The notes beneath the pieces are model-generated. The model worked only from the letters and a program-made list of their open reading frames with translations, was not told where the DNA came from and did no database searches. Positions 36,329 through 44,807 of a DNA stretch of 64,000 nt are shown piece after piece. The translations under genes were made by a program, and so were the position numbers. Within the stretch, counting starts at the first letter, position 1. The number at the start of each line of letters is the position of its first letter. The stretch is from Gammaproteobacteria bacterium (GTDB lineage Bacteria > Pseudomonadota > Gammaproteobacteria > Xanthomonadales > SZUA-36), in contig JAJRUM010000070.1 in NCBI GenBank assembly GCA_024277815.1, forward strand, positions 1 through 64,000. The letters are read 5' to 3'.

Positions 36329-37213
36329 ATGGCAGCAAAAAAGAACCCACTTGGTCGTAATTTGAGCTCGATGCTCAGCAAGTCCACTCTGCGCCATGCT
36401 GTGGAACAAACGCAGTCTGGATTGTCCGGGCGGGACGCTTTGCGGGAACTGCCCCTGGACCTGATCACGCCTGGCCCTTACCAGCCGCGATCAGTCTTTG
36501 ATGCAGACCGGCTTGAAGAGTTGGCGGAGTCTATTCGTCACCAGGGGGTGATCCAGCCGATCGTGGTGCGCCCCAAGGGTGACCAGCACTATGAATTGAT
36601 CGCAGGTGAACGGCGTTGGCGGGCGGCACAGATCGCCGGTATTGAAAAAATCCCGGCCATCGTACGTGATGTACCGGATGAAATTGCCATCGCCATGGCG
36701 CTGGTCGAAAATATCCAGCGTGAAAACCTGAACCCGATTGAAGAAGCATCAGCGCTGCGGCGCCTGGTTGATGAATTCCAGATGACCCACCAGCAGGCCG
36801 GCGATGCTGTCGGGCGGTCCCGCTCTGCGGTGTCCAACTTGTTGCGGCTACTGGAGTTGTCAGCTGATGTGCGTGAACTGGTTGATGCCCGCCACCTGGA
36901 AATGGGCCACGCCCGTGCCCTGTTAACGCTCGAGCCTTCAAAGCAAGCGCAGGCTGCCCGTGAAGTGGTCGCCAAAGCCTTGTCAGTGCGCGAAACTGAG
37001 CAGTTGGTCCGGCGCCTGAAAAACCCACCGCAACGCCATGAACAGACCATCGACCCTGACATTCAACGGCTGCAGGATAACCTTTCGGAAAGGCTCTGCG
37101 CCCGGGTAAAGCTGCGGCACAACGCGAAAGGCAAGGGCAAGATGGTTATTGCCTATAATTCTGCGGATGAACTGGAAGGCATCCTGATACAGATGGGGCT
37201 GGATACAAAATAG
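36329..37213 (+). CDS. parB: Chromosome partitioning protein ParB/Spo0J
   Basis: ParB binds parS sites and spreads as a CTP-dependent clamp. The 294-residue protein has an N-terminal PLGRNLSSMLS stretch, the CTP-binding segment PGPYQPRSVFD...ELAESIRHQG, AGERRWRAAQIAG, a helix-turn-helix region (THQQAGDAVGRSRSAVSNLLR) and a C-terminal dimerisation domain. I see no TGTTTCACGTGAAACA-like parS site in the window. Confidence 0.96.
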   Translation: MAAKKNPLGRNLSSMLSKSTLRHAVEQTQSGLSGRDALRELPLDLITPGPYQPRSVFDADRLEELAESIRHQGVIQPIVVRPKGDQHYELIAGERRWRAAQIAGIEKIPAIVRDVPDEIAIAMALVENIQRENLNPIEEASALRRLVDEFQMTHQQAGDAVGRSRSAVSNLLRLLELSADVRELVDARHLEMGHARALLTLEPSKQAQAAREVVAKALSVRETEQLVRRLKNPPQRHEQTIDPDIQRLQDNLSERLCARVKLRHNAKGKGKMVIAYNSADELEGILIQMGLDTK

Positions 37214-37278: not shown

Positions 37279-37292
37279 TTGATTAAGATCAA
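37279..37292 (+). promoter_or_regulatory. FNR/Anr binding site upstream of the OsmC-family gene
   Basis: TTGATTAAGATCAA is a perfect match to the FNR/Anr consensus TTGAT-N4-ATCAA and fully palindromic in its arms. It lies 41.5 bases, centre to predicted transcription start, upstream of a TATGCT -10 element, the exact spacing of a class II FNR-activated promoter. Confidence 0.8.
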
Positions 37293-37314
37293 ATAGGGGC
37301 AGCCTGTTTGCCGT

Positions 37315-37320
37315 TATGCT
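37315..37320 (+). promoter_or_regulatory. -10 element of the OsmC-family gene
   Basis: TATGCT (3 or 4 matches to TATAAT in the key positions) would start transcription near 37327, with no -35 hexamer but an FNR site centred at -41.5. The start codon is 35 bases further. Confidence 0.55.
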
Positions 37321-37361
37321 GCGGACTGCTTCTCAAAGTGAACATTTGGAGGTAAGCGAAT

Positions 37362-37796
37362 ATGCAGGGTTTTCCACACCACTATCTCGCCAGCGCTGCT
37401 GGTGAGGCTGAGGGCAGTGTTGTTGTCCGTGGCAATGGCTTGCCGGATCTGGACACGCAGTCTCCGCCGCAGTTTGGAGGGCCTGAAGGCGTCTGGTCAC
37501 CTGAAACCATGTTGTCGGCAACGGTCGCCAACTGTTTCATATTGACCTTTCGTGCCATTGCAGCTGCATCGAGATTTGAATGGAACTCCTTGCAGTGTGA
37601 CGCTGAAGGTGTCCTTGAGCGTCCGGAGCGTACCACCCTGTTCACGCAATTCAATATTCATGCAGTTTTGCATGTGCCAGCAGGTGCGAATGCGTCAATG
37701 GCGCAGCGTTTACTGGAGAAAGCCGAGAAAATTTGCCTGATTACTGCTTCACTGAAAGCGGAAATCAACCTGACAACAGATATTCTGGAAGATTAG
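37362..37796 (+). CDS. OsmC/Ohr family protein
   Basis: An OsmC-fold protein of 144 residues; family members reduce organic hydroperoxides with two cysteines. The nucleophile-like Cys lies in SATVANCFILTFRAIA and the second in EKICLITASLKAEIN, which fits the peroxidase pattern of the family although the sequence is divergent. The ATG follows GGAGGT. It sits between parB and atpI, with its own promoter and an FNR/Anr box. Confidence 0.85.
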   Translation: MQGFPHHYLASAAGEAEGSVVVRGNGLPDLDTQSPPQFGGPEGVWSPETMLSATVANCFILTFRAIAAASRFEWNSLQCDAEGVLERPERTTLFTQFNIHAVLHVPAGANASMAQRLLEKAEKICLITASLKAEINLTTDILED

Positions 37797-37931: not shown

Positions 37932-38330
37932 GTGCATGTGAAGGGTCTGGGTGACGAGAACACGCCAATGGCGGTTCCCAACGGTGGTTTTATCCGCCGT
38001 GGTCTGAGGGTTCAGTCCATCGCAGCACTTTTACTGGCTGGCGGCTTGTTGTTGATCGGGCCGGTCGCTGCGTATTCCTCCATGTTTGGAAGTTTGGCGG
38101 CGTTCATTCCTGCCCTGTTTTTTGCGCTGATTGTAGCGCCAAAATTCGGGCCGGACAGCGCCGCTTTTCTACGCGCCGCTGTCATCGCCGAAGTGGCAAA
38201 GATTGTGCTAACCGCGCTGATATGCGTGGCAGTTTTTATTTGGGTCAAACCCCTTGCGGCCGGGTGGTTTTTTACCGGTATGGCCGTGGTGATTTTCAGC
38301 GGAAGGCTGGGGTTGTTTTTCAGGGTTTGA
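37932..38330 (+). CDS. atpI: ATP synthase protein I
   Basis: AtpI is a small membrane protein thought to help assemble the c-ring of the ATP synthase. The 132-residue protein has about four membrane spans (AALLLAGGLLLIGPVAAYS, FIPALFFALIVAP, VLTALICVAVFIWV and GMAVVIFSGRLGLFF). It lies first in the atp operon, as usual. The start is uncertain: GTG at 37932, GTG at 37938 or ATG at 37968. Confidence 0.85.
   Translation: MHVKGLGDENTPMAVPNGGFIRRGLRVQSIAALLLAGGLLLIGPVAAYSSMFGSLAAFIPALFFALIVAPKFGPDSAAFLRAAVIAEVAKIVLTALICVAVFIWVKPLAAGWFFTGMAVVIFSGRLGLFFRV

Positions 38331-42516: not shown

Positions 42517-44807
<2,291 letters not shown>

Follow-up and report, generated by a model that had tools for sequence, protein, structure and literature searches.

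A putative class II FNR/Anr-dependent promoter upstream of an OsmC-family gene in a gammaproteobacterial genome

The window analyzed in this study, a stretch of DNA of 64 kb, harbors a gene for a 144-aa OsmC-family protein (37362 to 37796, forward strand; Pfam OsmC, PF02566, 1.1e-15) which is preceded by an apparent FNR/Anr box, raising the question of whether its transcription responds to low oxygen. The gene carries the sequence GGAGG, read as its ribosome-binding site, at 37348 to 37352 (forward strand) and is flanked on the same strand by parB (36329 to 37213; Pfam ParB_N, HTH_ParB, and ParB_C) and by atpI, the first of the ATP synthase genes (37932 to 38330; Pfam ATP-synt_I), these assignments being in agreement with the neighbors named in the first-pass annotation of this DNA.

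The putative box, TTGATTAAGATCAA, occupies positions 37279 to 37292 of the forward strand and is intergenic, beginning 66 nt past the parB stop (37213) and ending 70 nt ahead of the osmC ATG (37362). Its assignment is based on an exact match (0 mismatches) and on conservation; it represents the sole exact occurrence of TTGATNNNNATCAA within the window, the next-best matches, at 44121 and 51696, each bearing 1 mismatch. Matches with 2 mismatches numbered 40, compared to 27 expected, and a single match within the window, taken alone, is weak evidence, the strong evidence being its conservation. A −10 element, TATGCT (37315 to 37320, forward strand), is located 22 nt 3′ of the box, a spacing which is conserved, and it is solely from the position of this element that the transcription start is predicted at 37327 (forward strand), with a 35-nt 5′ leader. 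Because the last T of TATGCT is placed at −7, the box spans −48 to −35 and its center, 37285.5, falls at −41.5, such that the exact match and the 41.5-base distance reported initially were both reproduced. A crude promoter scan returned no consensus −35/−10 pair at this position. A TTGAT-N4-ATCAA box centered near −41.5, over the −35 region relative to the predicted start, combined with a −10 element but lacking a −35 consensus, is the arrangement of a class II promoter, and it appears highly probable from these features and their conservation that osmC is expressed from an FNR/Anr-activated promoter of this class and would be induced at low oxygen.

Retention of the box in relatives, which had been put forward as a check on this reading, is borne out by the orthologs. 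These were obtained from 30 loci of relatives and 39 loci from a scan of named genomes, the latter mostly from uncultured gammaproteobacterial MAGs (some labeled Xanthomonadales, Lysobacterales, Woeseiaceae, or Halieaceae), and, once duplicates were removed, a 120-nt upstream region could be used for each of 53 orthologs, with dinucleotide shuffles serving as the null. The pattern TTGAYNNNNRTCAA, with at most 1 mismatch, was present upstream of 18 of the 53 orthologs compared to 0.65 expected, a ratio which is somewhat overstated, as the orthologs are related rather than independent. A −10-like hexamer follows the box at exactly 22 nt in 16 of these 18 regions, the two exceptions being L025, in which the spacing is 21 nt, and L104, which contains no such hexamer. 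In the alignment of box-bearing regions, the first, second, and last positions of the −10 element carry 1.2, 1.4, and 1.7 bits, respectively, and the positions between the box and the −10 element are nearly random (0 to 0.6 bits). Within the genus-level clade of the OsmC protein tree, all nine members possess the box and share the gene order parB-osmC-atpI.

The remaining 35 orthologs, many of them more distant, do not carry the box; among them are L016 and L021, close relatives in which prx5 and osmC are separated by only 11 to 12 nt. Such control therefore appears to be lineage-specific, although, judging from the sequences, it recurs in distant families. An ortholog (E ≤ 1e-25) was identified in 11 of 368 other genomes sampled across the class, and among the nine of these in which the start could be placed, two display a box with 22-nt spacing to a TAnnnT hexamer, namely, L195 (TTGATGCGGATCAA-22-TAGGCT) and L190 (CTGATGTTAGTCAA-22-TACTGT). 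The half-sites of the relatives' boxes are often TTGAC/GGTCAA, which may be associated with weaker FNR binding.

A regulator predicted to recognize such a site is encoded in the same genome. One canonical FNR/Anr (G000:C62:61324-62055), located directly 3′ of hemN, contains the cysteines C19, C22, C28, and C121 together with an ETISR recognition helix, and an ortholog with 80 to 91% identity was found in all genus members searched. Across the genome, the box pattern occurs at 29 sites, compared to 7 for a reversed control pattern; these sites were only partly assigned to genes, and the targets named here come from the assigned subset. They include nirS, hemN, uspA, ubiT/ubiU, a 2-oxoacid (pyruvate:ferredoxin oxidoreductase-type) ferredoxin oxidoreductase gene, and cytochrome c genes, and several of the sites are followed by a −10-like hexamer 21 to 22 nt downstream. 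The set comprising nirS, hemN, uspA, and ubiT/ubiU is, as predicted from sequence, a textbook FNR regulon. The first-pass annotation had proposed class II control by FNR/Anr in response to low oxygen; conservation, the canonical FNR/Anr, and a regulon sharing the same spacing reinforce the class II part of that proposal, with low-oxygen induction as its predicted outcome.

Several arrangements within this putative regulon were also observed. A single perfect box (L079:2039-2052; G000:C1:108638) is shared by divergent ubiT-like (SCP2) and ubiU-like (peptidase U32) genes, with a −10-like hexamer at a distance of 21 nt on each side (TATACT and TAGAAT), and may drive both genes. Two adjacent and very similar genes (L078:2036 and 3640; G000:C1:29035 and 30639) each carry a near-identical box, TTGACCTATATCAA and TTGATCTATATCAA, approximately 190 to 220 nt upstream. 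Two FNR-type boxes 23 nt apart (L081:2197 and 2220; G000:C21:56696-56732) precede a multiheme cytochrome-like gene, and a third box at this locus serves a divergent cytochrome c gene. No convincing FNR box was detected in the stretches searched ahead of this genome's own prx5 genes or its second OsmC-type gene.

We propose that, under low oxygen, the single FNR/Anr would retain its [4Fe-4S] cluster, dimerize on TTGATTAAGATCAA at −41.5, and bring sigma-70 RNA polymerase to TATGCT, at a promoter which has no usable −35 element, whereupon the OsmC-family gene would be transcribed. Its product would most likely be a two-cysteine (C58/C125) thiol peroxidase belonging to a distinct OsmC subfamily, the substrates of which could be organic hydroperoxides or, in cells that also make NO via NirS, peroxynitrite at the oxic/anoxic boundary.

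Three other explanations for the box were weighed against this proposal. The box could be read by a different member of the Crp/FNR family, for instance a Dnr-like protein that senses NO, in which case the signal would be NO rather than oxygen. The consensus sequences of Anr and Dnr are indistinguishable in Pseudomonas aeruginosa (PMC6588701), nirS itself lies behind a box in the window's genome, and a second Crp/FNR-family regulator with an ESVSR or ESISR helix is encoded in four genus members (L164 to L167, from G002, G008, G001, and G004, respectively). That regulator is apparently missing from the window's genome, where only two HTH_Crp_2 proteins exceeded the cut-off and the second of these (L032) reads SRQTVNALL instead of ETISR; with genome completeness at 93.8%, a gene may have been missed. 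Three further relatives (G006, G007, and G009) keep the box, and the search gave no second Crp/FNR protein in them beyond weak matches, whereas FNR/Anr was found in every genus member searched. An NO-responsive regulator is accordingly considered unlikely to be the one acting at this promoter.

An FNR/Anr-type promoter could also chiefly modulate the ATP synthase genes by read-through, with osmC as a passenger. Throughout the genus osmC directly precedes atpI, and a crude scan of the gap between them found no terminator-like site and no consensus sigma-70 promoter, so transcription may to some extent read through into the ATP synthase genes. The box nonetheless accompanies osmC in L009, L010, and L012, where it lies directly upstream of the gene and no atp genes were found beside it, which argues against ATP synthase read-through as its main purpose and makes this explanation very improbable. 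Least credible, to the point of being almost negligible, is a chance palindrome: judging from the reversed control, a genome of this size should contain approximately 7 matches to the degenerate pattern by chance, but the frequency of the box among orthologs and its fixed spacing to a conserved −10 element contradict a chance match. Control of osmC by FNR/Anr remains the preferred reading, and the nature of the product bears on what such control would achieve.

Membership of the OsmC family is clear from the Pfam score (58.3 bits against a cut-off of 27.5), and the AlphaFold model of the protein (pLDDT 96.5) matches OsmC/Ohr structures with Z scores of 14 to 17, including, as judged from this model, 17.1 to 2onf and 16.1 to E. 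coli OsmC. C58, C125, and E48 are invariant within the subfamily in alignments of 42 and 54 sequences, as expected of a two-cysteine thiol peroxidase. The protein thus resembles the Ohr/OsmC thiol peroxidases in fold, in its two cysteines, and in its active-site glutamate, but it shares only about 14 to 23% identity with the solved structures and falls below the curated cut-offs for Ohr (TIGR03561; 36.5 versus 88.85 bits), OsmC (TIGR03562; 37.2 versus 85.8 bits), and SACOL1771 (TIGR03563; 40.5 versus 166.15 bits). Its own features include N-terminal MQxxPHxY and WSPE signatures, with H6 invariant wherever the N terminus is present.

The catalytic arginine of Ohr corresponds to Arg19 in the Xylella enzyme XfOhr, and reported Ohr substrates include fatty-acid hydroperoxides and peroxynitrite (PMC5962072). 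No mostly-Arg position was evident in the corresponding N-terminal region of the subfamily alignment, a comparison of sequences only; R64 and R87, at which Arg predominates (83%), lie elsewhere in the sequence. The lack of a conserved counterpart of the Ohr arginine renders peroxidase activity uncertain, and, since the family member YhfA of E. coli has no known activity, such a role should not be assumed for proteins of this general type. The initial description of the product as hydroperoxide reductase-like is consequently retained at the level of the OsmC family and does not extend to the Ohr, OsmC, or SACOL1771 subfamilies. We regard the chances that the protein acts as a peroxidase as about evenly balanced. 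The presence of nirS in the genome makes peroxynitrite a reasonable candidate substrate, a suggestion with which the Prx5 neighbor seen in other relatives is in keeping. A more specific scenario, which we put forward tentatively and consider rather doubtful, is that, in several lineages of Gammaproteobacteria, a distinct OsmC subfamily (MQxxPHxY, FGGP, WSPE, and no Ohr-type Arg) was recruited to the FNR regulon in order to handle not the classic organic hydroperoxides but an oxidant specific to low oxygen, for example, persulfides or the peroxynitrite that arises through denitrification.

The predicted promoter has close counterparts in Sphingopyxis granuli, in which FNR boxes have been placed at −41.5 (uspA), −42.5 (hemN2), and −40.5 (ubiT) relative to the start of transcription (PMC7713065). 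The class II promoters of that organism (uspA, ccoN, hemN2, and ubiT; PMC7713065) likewise combine a TTGAT-N4-ATCAA-type box near −41.5 with a canonical FNR, whereas the target here is an OsmC-family gene. Low-oxygen control had been called unexpected for a family associated with peroxide stress, a view which is tempered by two precedents: yhjA (Ccp) of E. coli is under the control of FNR and OxyR (PMC10301912), and ccpR forms part of the core Anr regulon of P. aeruginosa (PMC6588701). FNR/Anr activation of a (here putative) peroxide-removing gene would be common to all three and is less surprising in view of these cases, although yhjA and ccpR encode heme cytochrome c peroxidases, and yhjA is additionally OxyR controlled, in contrast to the thiol-type OsmC protein of the present locus.

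A search of open-access papers retrieved none that describes an OsmC gene as a target of FNR/Anr, which is not proof of absence, and nothing useful on OsmC in connection with sulfane sulfur. The present case is well supported as a new target for a known promoter type, acting on an uncharacterized OsmC subfamily, and represents a real, if modest, finding. If correct, it would add an OsmC-type thiol protein to the FNR/Anr regulon of uncultured gammaproteobacteria, and would suggest that these cells arm themselves in advance against oxidants ahead of oxygen's return, or against nitrosative oxidants arising from denitrification. It also draws attention to a subfamily whose substrate is directly testable.

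In the three loci without adjacent atp genes (L009, L010, and L012), osmC is situated between a gene for a Prx5 peroxiredoxin (Redoxin) and a Tll0287-like gene. No convincing FNR box was found before prx5 in the stretches searched from relatives with a short prx5-osmC gap. More broadly, a cluster encoding a Prx5-type peroxiredoxin, the OsmC-family protein, and an exported protein of approximately 190 aa recurs in L009, L010, L012, L014, L016, L021, and L028, the exported protein of L012 being Tll0287-like by Pfam. Finally, in a Halioglobus MAG the OsmC gene is followed by another member of its subfamily (L101:3529-4002), the two forming tandem copies.
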